In this document: positions 1 to 57,104 of the stretch, piece by piece | How the letters are laid out: each line of letters starts with the position of its first letter | How positions within the stretch are numbered: position 1 is the stretch's first letter | Assembly (NCBI RefSeq): GCF_944801835.1 | Contig: NZ_CALYLN010000001.1 | Location: forward strand, 714,001-778,000 | Direction: 5' to 3' | Origin: Bartonella sp. B1099 | Lineage (GTDB): Bacteria; Pseudomonadota; Alphaproteobacteria; Rhizobiales; Rhizobiaceae | Length of the DNA stretch: 64,000 nucleotides | Position numbers and translations under genes: made by a program | Notes under the pieces: model-generated | What the model was told of the DNA's origin: nothing | What the model saw: only the letters and a program-made list of their open reading frames with translations | Databases searched by the model: none

Positions 1-806
1 GCACGACGAGTGTTCCCTATCACAAATCTCTAAGACATCTTAAGAACTTATATGTTTTTATTCTTTGACTTTGGTGTTAAAACTCACCTCTTGCGCTGGT
101 TAACAAACGGCTTATTTTCTTTTAATAAAAATGACTCTCCAATTAATCACGAACATCAACAGTCCTAAAGTAAAGAAACCTCATAATATAAAAAACCTTA
201 ACAAGGTGATATGTATCCATTAAAAAGAACGGATATGACAATGTTATGTTAGCGAAACGCTAATAGTAGAGCAAGATTTTTTTCAAACGGTTTTCTTAAA
301 GCGCACGCGTTTCACATAAAATAAAGCACCCTCAAAAATATCATTTTTATTGTGTATCCACGTATTTCTAGATTTAACAGTTTCACATATTCATGAGAGT
401 GCCTATGAAGCGTATACTCTCCTTTCCATGAAAGGTATAAAATTCATGATGCTCCCCTATTTTTACTGAAATAGAAGGTACAAACCGATATCTTCATACT
501 CTTTGCTCGTTTCCAATGTGACAATAATTTTTGCATTGAGAGGGAGTATGAGAGGTCTTTTATGCCTTTTTAAAAGTGCTTTTATCCACACACCGTTTCC
601 GTTTATGACATCTCAACAAACCATTGCAATTGGATTCAAGATGAACAGGGTTAAAATGAGAGAGTTTTATGATATCTAGGTTTTCTACTCATGTCATAAA
701 ACGATAAATTATCATTATAAATCAATATATTGACTTAAAAAGGCCAAGCATAGAATTTTATAGTATGTTTTCTTTGGCTGACAAGTTTTGTGAAGTTTAA
801 AGAATA
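1..806. other. Gene-free stretch with a decayed integrase module at its right end
   Basis: No supportable gene lies here. Roughly 1-450 is AT-rich sequence that I cannot assign. From about 455 to 734 the sequence aligns by eye with the integrase-leader module seen elsewhere in the window, listed as its own repeat entry. Confidence 0.6.
455..734 (-). repeat. Integrase-leader module, copy A
   Basis: This is a degraded copy. A stretch near 500-545 resembles the integrase 5' coding region. It is followed by the leader, with an AATGAGAG-like arm near 655, and by a well-kept terminal motif at 706-732 containing TTATAAATCAATATATTG. The module ends about 75 nt from the 3' end of the EI24-domain gene. 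The match is by eye against the best copy near 43.4-43.8 kb. Confidence 0.6.
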
Positions 807-1526: not shown

Positions 1527-2777
1527 AGATTAATAAACTAAGGAAAGAAGCAAAAAAAACAAGAAATATATTTAAAGAAGGTGTTGTGTAATTTTTCCTT
1601 TCTTGAATTAAAGCTCTATTTTCAATAACACTAAAGAAATACATTGATATTGCTTTGTAAAAAAGAGGATTTTCACCTTGTATATATTTATTAAAATCAG
1701 GCTAAATTTTTCTTATAGAATGGATAGAATAAGTAAATTAAAATAAAAAATAACGAAAGCTTCTTCGTTTAAAATAAAATTTGAATCAATAGGAATTTTG
1801 GTTTTAAAAAACCGAGCAGAATTTAAGAAGCAGCTATTGTAGCAGAGTTTTTAAATATTTTCGTATAGAGTTTAGCTTATTGCATTTACATGATATATAA
1901 ATTAAGGTGGTAAGAAATATTGAGTAGGCGTTTTTTACTGATATTTTTTATCCAGTATAGTTTCCTAATTTTGTTTATCGATATCCTTATTTGTTTTGCA
2001 CGATCCCTAATATTTTGAATTTTAAGAGCTATAAAGTAAGAATTTATTGAAACATTTTTCATACAAATGGTGCATTGGAACGAATAATTTTTAGCTAATA
2101 ACACTATTCATTTATGAAGAGAATTTATCATCTTCAATTTTAATGAGGATCCAAAATAGAGAGATATTCTCTCAAATTTTCTCCTACTGTAAGGCTTTCG
2201 TAAAGTTGAAGGGTGGCAAACGATGGTTCTAGCTTGTCTTTTTAGAAGTTGGAAAGACAGTGGTATAAAAAATTCTATTCTTTATGAAGGCTAGGGTAAG
2301 ATGCGGTTAAAAAAAACATGTCTCAACGCTTGTCACACCCATTTTGCAATAGCTCCTGTGAATGGGATAAGGATAAAGCTGCCATGAATACTATAAAAAC
2401 TTATAGGGCACCACTGCCTTTATGCTTAACAAAAGAACACGCCGGTAGCACCATACACTTTGCCAATCCTCTCAATGTTGCGACAAGCACTTAGCCCTTG
2501 AAACAGCTCATTATAGATTTTTTAGTCTTTTCTTAAACATTTTCTATTCATGCAGCCATCCTTGCTAACGTGTAAGCAAATGGTTTTGATTGATTCAATA
2601 TATGGATTTGAAATGAGAGAAGCTTACGATATTCGGGGTTCTCATTCAAGTTGAATAACGCTAGATTATCATGATAAATTAATATGTTATCTAATCTAAT
2701 CGAGATGGATAGATAGCTTCTGTGTCTTCAAAAATTCATCTCTTATTTTATGAGATGTTTTAGCGTTTTAAAATTTA
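1527..2777. other. Long gene-free region between the EI24 gene and coaBC
   Basis: About 1.25 kb with no credible gene. The first 800 nt are very AT-rich, and a 72-codon minus-strand frame in them has low-complexity composition and no family resemblance. The last 370 nt, from about 2320, are a decayed integrase module. The region looks like eroded sequence. Confidence 0.6.
2320..2692 (-). repeat. Integrase-leader module, copy B
   Basis: It runs from a degraded integrase coding part (about 2320-2550, including a recognisable TTTGCCAATCCTCTCAATGT stretch) through the leader to the terminal motif at 2663-2690. The leader keeps the phrase TGGTTTTGATTGATTCAATA and an AATGAGAG arm. The copy stops about 85 nt beyond the 3' end of coaBC. 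Confidence 0.7.
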
Positions 2778-19568: not shown

Positions 19569-19727
19569 CAACATATTGATTTATAAAGTTAATTTATCTT
19601 TATTCACCTTGAATTAGAACTTTGAATGCCGTAAGCTACTCTCATTGCAAATCTCTCTCATATTAAATAAAAACCGTTTTCTTGTATATTAAAGTGGAGA
19701 AGTCTGCGTGGTAAAAACGATTCAGAA
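19569..19727 (+). repeat. Integrase-leader module, copy C (leader part)
   Basis: A plus-strand copy. The terminal motif lies at 19569-19596, reading ACATATTGATTTATAA. It is followed by the leader with a CTCTCAT arm and by the integrase pseudogene that begins at 19728. This is one of only two copies in this orientation; the other lies near 46.9 kb. Confidence 0.65.
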
Positions 19728-20149: not shown

Positions 20150-20350
20150 GGTTCCCCAACGAAATACCTCAAAATATAACACATTTGTGTTGCAAATTTA
20201 TGGGCTTGTTTAAAAAAATATTTCTTAGTGTGCGCTTGAACCTATTTCACAAGATTGCTTGTGAAAAGGTATAATAGATCCCTTATAGAAGACAGTCATT
20301 TGAAGTGTGGTGATAGTAAGGCGTGTAGCCTCTTTGACCAAGTGTTTTGA
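20150..20350 (-). repeat. Integrase remnant, copy D (coding part only)
   Basis: On the minus strand, the phrase GGGCTTGTTTAAAAAAATAT and the following bases align by eye with the segment encoding LRDVSLKQAREL in the best copy. The next 100 nt are much degraded. No leader or terminal motif is seen. It faces copy C tail to tail. Confidence 0.4.
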
Positions 20351-22439: not shown

Positions 22440-22716
22440 ATGGTCTGTGCCCTATAGACACCATCTATAAGATATAAGCTGATACCATTACTCTATTGGC
22501 ATTCGCATATTGCAACAATCTCCCCTAGTCGCTTGAAAAGCTTCATAAGAGGATAATGATTTCTTTCTATGCACATCATATCCTCTATGATGCACAAGTG
22601 AGTATTTTTGTTTGATTTCATATTAAAAGATTTGAAAGGAGAAAATTCTACGATATTCACTTCTCTTATTCAAGGAGCAAAAATATAAATTATTATCATT
22701 AATTAATATGTTATTC
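22440..22716 (-). repeat. Integrase-leader module, copy E
   Basis: A degraded copy. An ATATTGCAACAATCTCCCCT stretch corresponds to the start of the integrase coding part, and a leader remnant follows (GATTTGAAAGGAGAAAATTC, about 22630-22650). The terminal motif lies at 22687-22714, ending TTAATTAATATGTTAT. Confidence 0.5.
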
Positions 22717-23049: not shown

Positions 23050-23346
23050 TGTTATTAAGCACCTCCATCTTTACGCTTATGAAGAAACAAGCTGACACCA
23101 TCACACACTTTGACAACTCGTGCGCGTAGCGATAACCGCTGGCACTCGAGACGATTTGTGAGAGGCATTTTTACTCTTTTTTTGTATAGTTTTTCTTCAC
23201 ACAATTCTCTTCACTTGTAATGTGCAAGCAAGCGATTTTGATTGATTCAACATGAAACAGATTTGAAATGAAAGAATCCTACAATCTTCGGAACTCTTAT
23301 TCAACATGCAAAACAATGAATTGTTTTATAAACCAATACGTTGCCA
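23050..23346 (-). repeat. Integrase-leader module, copy F
   Basis: A better-kept copy. CCATCTTTACGCTTATGAAG (from about 23065) matches the coding part near 43.49 kb. GATTTTGATTGATTCAACAT in the leader is nearly identical to the best copy. The terminal motif at 23318-23344 has diverged (TTATAAACCAATACGTTG). Confidence 0.7.
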
Positions 23347-23369
23347 TTGCAAGTAACAGATGATGGTGG

Positions 23370-23640
23370 TAGTGCTAAAAGGCACCATTATCTTTATGAT
23401 TACGAAAGTTCAAACTAACACCCCATCATTTCTTTACCAGTTTCCATATTGCTACAGGCTTTGGCATTTTAAATGGTTTACAAAAGATATTTCGAGTTTT
23501 TTAATATTTTATGCATTATCTCTGTTTGTGATGTACAAGAAAATGATTTTTTGCTGGATTCCATGAATAAGAGAGCTGAAAATGAAGAAGACCTTACGAT
23601 GCTAACGCTCTCTCATTTAATATGTTCTTCTTATAAATCA
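23370..23640 (-). repeat. Integrase-leader module, copy G (degraded)
   Basis: It lies directly after copy F in the same orientation. GGCACCATTATCTTTATGAT and GTTTGTGATGTACAAGAAAA correspond to coding and leader parts of the module. The terminal motif is not recognisable. Confidence 0.4.
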
Positions 23641-23787
23641 AGAAAGCACTATTAAACTCTTAAAAAGATCTATACACATTTACAAAACCTTAAAAGCACC
23701 ACACAACCCTATAACATGGTGCCTCTAAACGATATACTTACACGCTCATCTTGATGAGTTGTACATAGGACATATTCCAATGAAAAA

Positions 23788-27454: not shown

Positions 27455-27884
27455 AAAAATAATTGTTTGGTTCAATAGTATCTTTATCTTATTTTACCAC
27501 AAAACCCTTTTGTTCCCATAAAACATTGTCGTTTTAGGTGTTAATATATCAAGTGGTTTTAGAGTACGTGGTGCGCAATTTTAAAGCTGGAATTTTTTCT
27601 CGTAAAGCCTTCAGCTCTGTGAATCATCACCTTTATCGCTTCTAAAAAAGAAAGTTAGACCATCATATATTTTCTATCTCAAAATATGACGATAGCTTTT
27701 GGCATTTGAAAGTGTTCATAAAAGTCATTTTTATCCAAAAATTCCCTTACCTTTAAGGGGTAAGTGAATGGTTGTTATTAATGTATTATAAACAGTTTTA
27801 AAAAAATTTTTACGATATTTTTGTTTCATTTTTGCTATGAAAAATAATTATGATCATTAAAATCAATATGTTGTTATAAAAACT
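27455..27884. other. Intergenic region between convergent dapE and hemW
   Basis: 430 nt. The first 150 nt are unassigned; the rest is decayed integrase module H. I see no clear bidirectional terminator. Confidence 0.5.
27630..27875 (-). repeat. Integrase-leader module, copy H
   Basis: A degraded copy. GCTTTTGGCATTTGAAAGTG (about 27696-27715) has a close twin in copy N, and the end motif AAATCAATATGTTG lies at 27860-27873. The module ends about 11 nt from the stop codon of hemW. Confidence 0.5.
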
Positions 27885-43365: not shown

Positions 43366-43589
43366 TTAAACAGAACGCCATTGGTTTGCCAATTCACGGG
43401 CTTGTTTTAAAGAAACATCTCTTAAGGCACCAAGCCCATTTCGCGACGACGCCCGTGAATGGTATAACGATAAAGCCATTGAGCACCACCATCTTTACGC
43501 TTATGAAGTAACAAGCCGGCACCATCATTATATTTGCCAGCCCCCAATGTTGCGACAGATCTTGCATTAAGCCGATTCATAAGAGCCAT
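43366..43589 (-). pseudogene. Tyrosine-recombinase 5' remnant, best-preserved copy
   Basis: Starting at ATG 43589 (with AAAGGACT upstream), it reads MALMNRLNARSVATLGAGKY, then NDGAGLLLHKRKDGGAQWLY and RYTIHGRRREMGL. A one-base loss in a G run at about 43430 shifts the frame. The next frame gives LRDVSLKQARELANQWRSV and then a stop at 43366-43368. This is the N-terminal arm-binding (DUF4102-like) domain of a P4-type integrase. The central and catalytic domains are missing. It is clearly a truncated gene with one further frameshift. Confidence 0.85.
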
Positions 43590-43765
43590 TTTTAGTCCTT
43601 TCTTATACAATTTTAACCCACACGCCAGCCCCGCTTTTGACGTGCAAGGGAGTGGTTTTGATTGATTCAACATAAACAGATTTGAAATGAGAGAATCTTA
43701 CGTTATTCGGGACTCTCATTCAACACACAAAATAGTAAATTATCATTATAAATCAATATGTTGTA
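43590..43765 (-). repeat. Integrase-leader module, copy I (leader and terminal motif)
   Basis: The reference copy. Upstream of the integrase ATG lie GTGGTTTTGATTGATTCAAC, an inverted repeat AATGAGAG (43687-43694)/CTCTCATT (43713-43720), and the terminal motif at 43738-43763 containing TTATAAATCAATATGTTG. All other copies in the window were recognised by comparison with this one. Confidence 0.85.
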
Positions 43766-43984
43766 CGAAAAAGAAAAGGTTCCAAATTTTGTGTTTATCT
43801 TTCTTGTCTATGATTTTTTACTCAAAACTCTTTTTAAAAGCTCCATCATAAAATTTTAAAATGGCAAAAACTGATCAAGTAAGGTTACAAAAGCTGTTGG
43901 GCAATCTATCTTATTCCCAATAATATAACCTCTCATGATCGATTGTATAAAGTGCTATTTTCATAGTCTTAACCTCAGCCCGCT

Positions 43985-44048
43985 TTAAAATATAGGGCAT
44001 TTTATTCGGATAACGTTAAATTATGATTATAAATCAAATTATATTATA
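43985..44048 (-). repeat. Integrase-leader module, copy K (end fragment)
   Basis: Only TTATTCGGATAACGTTAAAT and a variant terminal motif (GATTATAAATCAAATTATAT, 44018-44046) are recognisable. Confidence 0.45.
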
Positions 44049-44084: not shown

Positions 44085-44214
44085 AATGTGAAAACCAATG
44101 GTTTTGATTGATTTGTAATTTGAGAGTTAAAATGACAAAACATTCTTCTACCCAAATTTCTTATTTTTTTACGCTATAAAAATATAAATTATTATTATAA
44201 ATCAGTTTATTATA
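44085..44214 (-). repeat. Integrase-leader module, copy J (leader only)
   Basis: CAATGGTTTTGATTGATTTG begins the leader and a terminal motif variant with TTATAAATCAGTTTATTA lies at 44186-44212. No coding part is attached. Together with copies I and K it forms a small head-to-tail cluster. Confidence 0.55.
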
Positions 44215-46594: not shown

Positions 46595-46656
46595 GCTTGC
46601 AGCGTTTTCATTTAAATTACAAAACAATAAATGATCATTATAAATCAATATATTAT
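46595..46656 (-). repeat. Integrase-leader module, copy L (end fragment)
   Basis: TTTCATTTAAATTACAAAAC followed by a nearly intact terminal motif at 46628-46654 with ATTATAAATCAATATATT. No leader hairpin or coding part is left. Confidence 0.6.
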
Positions 46657-46908: not shown

Positions 46909-47175
46909 ATACAACATATTGATTTATAATGATAATATAACATTATTTATATTGAGTTAAAACTCTGAAGACTGTAAAATTTTCTCATTTCAAATGTTTT
47001 TCATGTTAAATCAATCCCAATCATTTGCTTACACGCCATAAGCGAGAGCCATGTGGTTAAAATTGCATAAAAAAGGCACGCCTTCTATAAATTCTTTCAA
47101 GTATCAAGGACTATCGCAACATTGGAGGTTGGAAAAGTGTGTGATGGTAGCGGCTTACCAGCCTATGAGTCATCA
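46909..47175 (+). repeat. Integrase-leader module, copy M (plus strand)
   Basis: The terminal motif at 46911-46937 (CAACATATTGATTTATAATG) is followed by a leader with TTTTCTCATTTCAAATG, AATCAATCCCAATCATTTGC, and a decayed integrase coding part to about 47175 (CAACATTGGAGGTTGGAAAA, CGGCTTACCAGCCTATGAG). No open reading frame of useful length survives. Confidence 0.65.
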
Positions 47176-49166: not shown

Positions 49167-49748
49167 CGAAAAAAGGCGTATTTTCCTCATTAGATTGCGC
49201 TTTTGCTTTTGTTGATTGTTCAGGTTCTTAAAGAGTGCTTCTTAAATGGCAATTTCTCAGTCCTCACATTTTTGGGTATAGTGTGTTTTTTCATTGTGTT
49301 ACGTTGCTCACGTAAAATGGAATGCTTTAAACAAAATACATTGGTGTTGCATATTGGCTCCCTTTTTTTTAAGAAATATCTCTCAATACACCCGATCTCA
49401 TTTCACAATGGTATTTGTCAAAAGGATAATCTAAAGCCTCCGTAAATGACATAAAACCCATTTGGCATGATCATCTTTACATGTCATAAAGACGCGTGCT
49501 GCTATCATCATACTTTTTGCGCATTCAAAATGTTATGATAGCTCTTGGTGTTTGAGAGCGTTCATTAAGGACATTTTTACTCTGTGTATTAAGGTGTGTC
49601 TTACTCATACACTTCTTACGTTTGTGATGTGCAAGGAAATGAGAGCGATTAATTCAATATGCAAGGATTTGAAATAAGAGACTCCTTGTATTTGAGGGTG
49701 TTATTCAAGTTGAAAAACAATAAATGACATTATCAATCAACATGGTAT
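49167..49748. other. Gene-free region between convergent lepA and dapD
   Basis: 580 nt. After about 160 nt of unassigned sequence it consists of decayed integrase module N. No clear terminator hairpin follows either gene. Confidence 0.5.
49330..49748 (-). repeat. Integrase-leader module, copy N
   Basis: One of the longer copies. AAGAAATATCTCTCAATACA (from about 49371) and CATTTCACAATGGTATTTGT correspond to the LRDVSLKQ and RRREMG coding parts. A leader follows (GTGATGTGCAAGGAAATGAG), then a diverged terminal motif at 49722-49747, which ends one base before the dapD stop codon. Confidence 0.6.
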
Positions 49749-55778: not shown

Positions 55779-57104
55779 GAAAGATTTTTAAAAATCTCAA
55801 TTAGGGAATTGATGAATTGATGGGATAAAATTGTTCAAGAGTAAAATTTCTTATGGGGTGATAAGGCAGTATCGTTTTTCCGATTATTAAAGAAACAAAT
55901 TAAAATAAACTCAAGTGACAGAAAGCTTTTGCAAGACATAATCTATTTGAAGACACTCTTGATATTTTTGTCCTCCTTAAGAAGGTATATTTATTCAAAA
56001 AATTTACAATGGATACTATCTTCCATTGAACGCTGGCATTTAACTCTGGGCGAAATGACAGAAATTATTGAAGGAAATTTTTAAATTTCATTATGCGCAT
56101 GATTGGCTTGATTATGACATGAATATTTATTTGTTAAGCGTATAAAAGAGCAATTAAAATAAATGCAATTCAAGCATCATAAAAGGGTAAAACATTCAAT
56201 ATAAAAAATGAGAAATGCATTAAACGAAAGAGCATCGCTTCATAAAAATGTTGCTTCGTATAAAGGTATAGTTGTAGCCTTCCAAAAGACTAATAGTCTT
56301 TAGTATTGTATGAGATGAAGACTTTCCATATTAATTAAAAAGTTATCTTATTGTACGCCCCTATTGTTTAGGGGGGAAGCTATATACTGCTTTCATATAA
56401 TCAAGGCAAGATTTTCTTTTAGCATGAAGTAACATTGGGAGCGGGCAAAATGTGTGATAGCGTCGCTTTGCTCCTATACCTCAACTTTGCTCATGATGTG
56501 CTAAGGAAACGATTTTCATTGATTTAATATGTGAGGATTTATGATAAGAAAAGCATACTCTGTTCGGAATTATTATTGAATAGAGGAGATAATTTAATCA
56601 TGATAAATCAATATGTTCTTTAGGCATTAACATACCTCAGGAATGAGCTGGTGAACATTATTTAAGTGGGGATTTTTTTTAAATTGGTAGGTCATTTGAT
56701 AAGATTAAAAACACTGGAAAAAGTTTTGATTCGCTATGATCGAGAAGTATATCCTGTTCTAGAGCTTTTATTTTAGGTAGCTTGCACCTATTAACAAGAT
56801 ATCCATAACCAATATATTAATTTTGCGGAAATGTTGTAGCGGAGGGGAGTTAAAATTTTGTTTTTAAAACAATGTGTAAGATAAACAATACATTTCTTAT
56901 TTCTATGCAAAGCATAAAAAACGTCACTTACTTTCCGTTACTATGAAAATAAAATTTCACAATCCAACAAATGATTACAAATATATTATAATGCTGAAAG
57001 AAGCGTGCACTAATAGATTAATAGTTACATAGCCCATAACCTTTTTAAATTGATCACACGTTCTCTGCTATAGATTGATTCCTTGAGAGAAGAGCTGGTT
57101 CTTT
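55779..57104. other. 1.3-kb gene-free region before tRNA-Ala
   Basis: No intact gene. Around 55985-56085 one frame reads WILSSIERWHLTLGEMTEII before stopping and looks like a fragment of a decayed gene of unknown kind. Integrase module O lies at about 56420-56620. The rest is unassigned AT-rich sequence. Confidence 0.5.
56420..56620 (-). repeat. Integrase-leader module, copy O
   Basis: A degraded copy. AACATTGGGAGCGGGCAAAA (about 56429) and the leader phrase GATTTTCATTGATTTAATAT are recognisable. The terminal motif at 56591-56618 keeps GATAAATCAATATGTTC. Confidence 0.55.

Follow-up and report, generated by a model that had tools for sequence, protein, structure and literature searches.

The locus considered here raises two questions: why a short piece of an integrase gene, joined to a leader and an AT-rich end, should recur at many places in one stretch of a Bartonella chromosome, and what the unit is that spreads. 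The stretch analysed, 64 kb in length and hereafter the window, belongs to a genome of 2.29 Mb in five contigs; the EamA protein encoded in it has its best named matches in Bartonella queenslandensis, tribocorum, elizabethae and grahamii (97-98% identity). The reference copy of the module, at 43366-43765, has the layout that an earlier note had described: it combines an integrase 5' fragment on the minus strand with a ~150-nt leader and an AT-rich end (43747-43764). The fragment (43369..43589, minus strand; delimited by the empty site in relatives) encodes the arm-binding domain of a P4-type tyrosine integrase. Its start codon is the complement of 43587-43589, and the gene is cut after about 74 codons, where unrelated spacer DNA begins. 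Upstream of the gene lie the inner part of the leader (43590..43654, minus strand) and the constant integrase-proximal or 'left' end (43655..43764, minus strand), with CAACATATTGATTTATAA outermost. The latter is defined by the alignment of ends and by a score of 101.5 bits against R1, a profile built from sequence alone on the last 111 nt of the left end. The variable core or crossover zone of this insertion is placed at 43765..43773 (minus strand), adjoining target DNA, by the register fit described below and by comparison with the empty site.

Searched against the window with blastn and nhmmer, the 43.4-kb copy has further matches well beyond chance level (best E 5e-42). With a cut-off of E<=1, R1 finds 13 copies, none weaker than E 1.2e-4, lying at 0.63, 2.1, 2.6, 19.6, 22.6, 23.2, 43.65, 44.0, 44.1, 46.6, 46.9, 49.65 and 56.5 kb in both orientations. 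Two weak copies, at 23.64 and 27.87 kb, come in addition from a longer profile that covers both the end and the integrase (E<=1e-4). The earlier note had counted about 15 places of one layout; a left end is present in 14 of the 15 by R1 or the longer profile, but the place at 20.2 kb has a 47-nt integrase match only, and the copy at 2.1 kb is additional to that list. Integrase remnants adjoin the left ends at 629..732 (minus strand, remnant to ~426) and 2583..2689 (minus, to ~2330), both found by R1 and the longer profile, and at 19569..19671 (plus, to ~20013) and 23235..23343 (minus, to ~23054), found by blastn/nhmmer as well. Further left ends lie at 22606..22713 (minus; R1 and longer profile), 56512..56617 (minus; R1) and, weakly, 2105..2177 (plus; R1 23.4 bits). 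Degenerate left ends with integrase sequence occupy 23366..23641 (minus; longer profile 35.8 bits, nhmmer 23368-23639) and 27585..27873 (minus; longer profile 24 bits, inner limit approximate), and the isolated integrase scrap lacking a left end lies at 20182..20227 (minus; blastn/nhmmer).

The remaining copies, all found by R1, stand beside identifiable neighbours. An old left-end piece (43995..44040, minus strand, 18.7 bits) and an old left-end copy (44101..44211, minus) precede argB, and for the latter a minus-strand left end occurs at a comparable place in 14 of 30 orthologous stretches. The spacer from the EamA gene to lepA holds a left-end piece (46598..46655, minus) and a copy (46912..47021, plus) that is orthologous, with the same truncation point, in several species. 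Between lepA and dapD lies 49646..49745 (minus), its integrase remnant directed toward lepA, an insertion common to 14 of 31 loci. None of the 13 R1 copies has a single nucleotide inside an ORF of at least 100 aa; random placement of 105 nt in the window gives an overlap of at most 5 nt with such ORFs in 23% of cases.

The family extends well beyond the window. With the window copy as query, at least 48 matches are found in the genome (40 of 174 candidates scored), and it matches 43 of 61 Bartonella genomes, themselves a sample from a larger group. R1 gives at least 148 matches in the genome, and as only 150 of 2,249 candidates were scored, the true number of left ends is probably higher. The left end is constant, conforming to YAAnnnATTGATTTATAATGATAAT beside unrelated outer flanks, while truncation points within the integrase differ from copy to copy. 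This is the pattern that the earlier note had named as support for a mobile unit, and it excludes random ends on both sides. Simple segmental duplication is rejected because flanks differ between nearly all copies, the single exceptions being the pair 34451/1407718 and three copies that have one outer flank in common.

What recurs as the module is one end, the integrase-proximal one, of an integrative island of ~15 kb present across Bartonella. Thirty of 159 left-end copies run past the integrase gene, to at least profile position 1400, and the copies that continue past the module share (with a full copy as reference) the integrase, a primase-like protein, a DUF3987 protein, a type ISP restriction-modification enzyme of ~1,640 residues and, after it, beta-solenoid proteins. 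The integrase gene stands at one end, and its product scores above cut-off for PF13356, PF22022 and PF00589 (arm-binding, core-binding and catalytic domains); it is the one integrase among the listed island ORFs. Among six island proteins scanned there are replication-type proteins, Toprim/primase-like and DUF3987 helicase-like, and no conjugation protein. A second sharp end is visible in six of eight copies compared, four of them being uninterrupted and 13.3-15.9 kb long, one a composite of ~28 kb and one without a left end. Of 40 stretches from 11 other genomes, 23 contain the two end profiles as a pair, 14.6-15.9 kb apart in 19 cases, and the far end is present in 31 of 61 Bartonella genomes. 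The suggestion that leader and terminal motif are the real unit of spread is not supported in that form: the autonomous unit is the ~15-kb island with its conserved far end.

Some islands carry arrays of YdcK-like beta-solenoid proteins (L024:214-1735, L053:12666-14001); our guess is that these genes may be the 29-copy phage-like gene of B. grahamii mentioned in the available part of PMC2697382. Rearranged forms also occur. In genome G000 a stretch of 18.5 kb (C2:144411-162972; L027 12973, minus strand, and L056 4411, plus strand) has inverted left ends on both sides and an inverted integrase copy inside, and is possibly a composite of two islands. Elsewhere in G000 two left ends stand back to back ~55 nt apart (C1:399829-400417, L032 3830-4418), the inner end of one of them being ~20 nt from a tRNA-Leu gene (L032 4437-4521).

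How the island inserts can be read from its junctions. It behaves as tyrosine-recombinase islands do, with two defined ends, precise insertion and an empty target; in one full island, C, the insertion splits the 3' end of a prophage adaptor-like gene that is also present, uninterrupted, at another place in that genome. The outermost far end carries a sigma-70-like promoter pair directed outward (e.g. L053:11030-11060, 27 junctions), with TTGACT in 24 of the 27; 16 nt beyond it and beside the crossover stands a -10 element that is exactly TATAAT in seven of the 27 and usually resembles that sequence otherwise. In the predicted circle this promoter would face and drive the integrase; in the integrated island it could drive neighbouring host genes.

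The promoter also supplies a register, a fixed offset of 24 positions between the far-end -10 and the left-end TTGATT. In this register a run of at least 7 nt is common to both junctions in 13 of 27 complete islands, as against none of 27 at each of the 16 shifts from -8 to +8 other than 0. The mean shared run is 6.26, compared with 2.55 for mismatched pairs, and none of 100000 permutations reaches the observed sum; the runs concentrate at positions 9-15. Three pairs (L103/17326, L106/15967, L073/1589) were dropped before this count, and the 6-nt repeat of island E, being out of register, was counted as a miss. Target duplication scored without the register is marginal (mismatched mean 5.6, observed 4-17). 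The core words vary from island to island, although L103 and L108, in one genome, both have TTTGCATC at two different sites. These in-register, site-specific repeats at both junctions argue that the integrase uses a short variable core, and we read it as a tyrosine recombinase whose short core would have to match the target and would drift. In the other 14 islands fewer than 7 nt are common to both junctions, which recombination between copies might explain. Three island ends (L051 15869, L066 7202, L080 15166) adjoin similar GGCGYCGGGCGCTAG-like sequence at different places, which suggests a recurrent target.

The short copies are one-sided. R2, the profile of the far end, gives 15 matches in the genome among 150 scored of 3,530 candidates, and in the window no match better than E 0.06, against the 13 R1 copies. 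Over the window plus 30 orthologous stretches (691 kb) there are no far ends to set against 69 left ends at E<=0.01. The genome has 77 integrase matches, with residues 30, 60, 120, 200, 280 and 360 covered by 42, 46, 35, 27, 21 and 15 of them, and 16 matches to the DUF3987 protein, counts in which one copy may contribute several matches. As no far end stands beside the short copies of these stretches, the short unit is not MITE-like with two matched parental ends, a candidate that was rejected on this count. The asymmetry would also arise if older islands had possessed a different far end whose remnants the present profile misses. Integrase modules in other surroundings, such as the F region, are consistent with this, as are ~40 nt beside the target in the lepA-dapD insert that are unaccounted for by eye. 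It is nevertheless very unlikely: the lepA-dapD profile matched the left part of the reference and not its far-end part, other inserts stop directly at target DNA, and no conserved inner-boundary motif is found among 29 truncated copies. That the module is the left end of the island and that the short copies are its one-ended derivatives is, taken together, very probable.

Further information comes from the target DNA. The 43.4-kb copy is a clean insert of ~0.4 kb, the dnaJ-argB spacer lacking it and having contiguous flanks in seven of eight relatives; the eighth, G046, lacks a longer stretch there. Of 31 loci, 17 have a lepA-dapD spacer of 65-86 nt and the other 14 one of 484-594 nt, with flanks intact. 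A comparator was available for 38 of 51 orthologous copies, which were grouped by the author into 12 events with the best comparator for each; the search accepted up to 150 nt between the flanks in the relative, so that larger target losses would be missed. The net difference is within 10 nt either way in seven of the 12 events (43.4 kb, lepA-dapD, EamA-lepA plus strand, ML69/ML70, 220B, B. fuyuanensis 19.8 kb and the B. koehlerae group). Two (B. taylorii and 56.5 kb in the window) have more DNA than their comparator, in poor alignments, and two show an apparent loss against poor comparators (50 nt in B. callosciuri, 10-40 nt for EamA-lepA minus strand). In the MM73/G046 event MM73 lacks ~135 nt, G046 shows no loss and ~7 nt are repeated. 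At lepA-dapD, the copies of rattimassiliensis, grahamii and AU18 come out at 17-42 nt net, an effect of differing estimates of the inner end; all three are orthologous to clean copies.

Nine copies of G000 were also checked. Three are without loss (C1:104242-104508, C1:593883-594331 and C2:494505-494752) and at one, C1:265865, ~38 nt of target are apparently missing. The other five (g, l, m, o and p) have no contiguous site in relatives, their flanks being apart with the insertion present in 6, 6, 3, 3 and 6 of six relatives, respectively. In total, of 16 events with a comparator, 11 clearly involved no target loss, two probably none and three perhaps a loss of 10-50 nt. Many short copies sit cleanly between genes, as if one end only had inserted or been left.

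One alternative account of such remnants would be ordinary decay, in which full islands inserted and random deletions spared only the integrase end. Truncation after insertion does occur, since in G000 a long-integrase copy and a truncated one have one outer flank in common (L027 and L031); the three events with a possible loss and the MM73 copy are what deletion would leave, and whole islands are presumably costly. Yet random deletion should often keep the far end, which is absent from the 691 kb compared, and should often remove target DNA, of which most events have lost none. Orthologues, moreover, mostly have the same truncation point (443-499 at lepA-dapD, with 159 in B. elizabethae; 252-268 and 674-703 for the plus- and minus-strand EamA-lepA copies, with 561 in B. 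fuyuanensis for the latter; 362-363 in the B. koehlerae group), and none of those compared has a full island at the site. Decay as the general origin of the short copies is therefore unlikely.

A different possibility is that the left end plus leader, some 0.25-0.7 kb, is a non-autonomous mobile unit served in trans by the integrase of a full island. The clean inserts of ~0.25-0.5 kb at many sites would suit such a unit, as would the excess of left ends and a surplus of copies, eight of them in G000, ending at profile 421-426, at the integrase word CCCATTAAAG. The sequence beyond 29 truncation points is, however, unrelated between copies, and a common second end was rejected: among the 29 tails the matches that start at the junction are the duplicated pair 34451/1407718 and one pair that is the same DNA stretch, all others lying further out. 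Recurrent inner ends at reference 612 or 697-725 were likewise discarded, those at 612 including the duplicated pair and fuzzy alignments. With lengths from 94 to 1270 profile positions and no common second end, each short unit would need a different inner boundary, and we consider this alternative improbable, on a par with decay. A full island in L106 also lies at the word CCCATTAAAG, which may be a favoured target or secondary site.

The inner junctions themselves carry some trace of the core. Words common to core, integrase and target include AAGCGT at C1:104508, AAGAA at C1:593883 and TTAAAG at C3:159124, and sharing of at least 6 nt between core and inner junction occurs in 11 of 62 copies, with 4.07 expected (p 0.004; lepA-dapD orthologues and the L106 tandem left out). 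The signal is weak overall, with p of 0.05, 0.035, 0.054 and 0.38 at rising score thresholds and of 0.013 and 0.33 in an 80-copy version, and the integrase sequence or consensus alone is not significant at these junctions (p 0.05-0.7). The left junctions of truncated and full copies agree in a preference for T at position 9 and the lack of C at 16, and differ at positions 8 and 14. We infer that the left junction would be integrase-made in truncated and full copies alike, and that the inner junction would come either from integrase action at a poor internal site or from end joining.

Selection for retention offers another explanation of the asymmetry, the left ends having been co-opted as functional intergenic DNA, for instance as a terminator, promoter or protein-binding site. 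Likeness between orthologues is higher across the terminal 110 nt (0.77-0.88, raw values) than across the 50 nt that follow (0.65-0.74) in all four groups, a hint of constraint or repeated conversion, and the window copies found by R1 are all intergenic. In the lepA-dapD group, though, likeness is greater in the flanks than in the left end, and co-option leaves the presence of short copies in intact target DNA unexplained; we regard it as less probable still than decay or a short mobile unit.

The reading we favour, and think probably right, is that an integrative island has been dispersed by means of a short, changing core and that the short copies are one-ended derivatives of its left end. 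In this scheme the integrase would recombine a core of ~7 nt with matching chromosomal sites, and since the core sequence would change over time, dispersal to many sites would follow. The truncations may have been made by the integrase itself, a proposal to which we give slightly less than even credence. A complex anchored at the left end would then engage a core-like site inside the integrase gene and not its proper partner. By one route, aberrant excision, the far-end core would recombine with the internal site, the rest of the island being lost and a left-end scar remaining; by the other, a broken or mini-circular copy would integrate by one end. Small intergenic scars would be kept for long, and whole islands lost. 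Aberrant excision, mini-circles and one-ended integration fit the data alike, and we make no choice among them. More tentatively, and with distinctly less confidence than in an integrase-made truncation, the copies could form an interspersed repeat family that grows by one-ended integration, one end being joined to a target by short homology and the other side sealed to a broken interior. Such integration might be fed by the 14-kb random DNA fragments of the Bartonella gene transfer agent, an agent treated in the available part of PMC3610622. If true, it would fill the genome with clean, end-anchored truncated copies in the manner of LINEs.

It is unusual for an integrase to leave a genome strewn with one-ended copies. 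Here a single integrase gene is present as dozens of fragments in the small genome of a pathogen, fragments that have a common origin and defined junctions. By accepting short, changing cores, the integrase of the island illustrates how enzymes of its kind can escape fixed sites, and the island brings a restriction-modification enzyme to many chromosomal sites. Its truncated copies, being insertion marks common by descent, are usable as phylogenetic markers and provide a test bed for one-ended integration.

No description of the left-end repeat family was found in the literature searched, most subscription journals lying outside that search. Islands and satellites with a P4-type (Arm-DNA-bind_3) integrase resemble the Bartonella island in having the integrase gene at one end, primase/helicase-like genes and defence-type cargo. 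Their core is classically long, fixed and located in a tRNA gene, whereas the Bartonella core is short and varies from site to site, the copies are numerous, and one-ended truncated copies dominate. Elements of the Tn916/CTnDOT class use a tyrosine recombinase, a variable crossover sequence and many target sites, all of which the Bartonella island has in common with them; it differs in the junction repeats found in half of the islands and in the lack of a conjugation protein among the six scanned. In the available part of PMC5991714 the coupling sequence of Tn916 is named, and Tn916, CTnDOT and SXT/R391 are contrasted with elements that integrate at matching sequences. We read the Bartonella core repeats as the same behaviour as that of spacer-matching tyrosine-recombinase elements that leave direct repeats, with the differences that the matching word changes with each island and that the islands occur together with truncated one-ended copies.

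Among described tyrosine-recombinase islands, the nearest found are the SE of the Tn6283 group (PMC5991714, PMC10214605), which, in the passages of these papers available to us, are ~15 kb long, carry a tyrosine recombinase at the left end and are putatively non-mobilizable. Their core genes are given as intA, tfp, intB and srap, with one or two copies per replicon, and they are reported from Gammaproteobacteria and not from other taxa (PMC10214605, in the same passages). On that account, size and left-end recombinase are alike, but the Bartonella island has one integrase among its listed ORFs, many copies and a Bartonella host. For the fha-repeat of Bartonella grahamii the available passages of PMC2697382 describe an fha/hec cargo, without mention of a left-end family, a core or truncated copies; the island described here carries a type ISP enzyme as its cargo. 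The short copies also invite comparison with 5'-truncated non-LTR retrotransposons, in their manner of working only. LINEs have one constant end, a variable other end, a mostly intact target and many truncated copies. The Bartonella unit is a bacterial DNA element with a tyrosine integrase and with no reverse transcriptase among the island proteins scanned, yet its short copies display the same pattern of one constant end.
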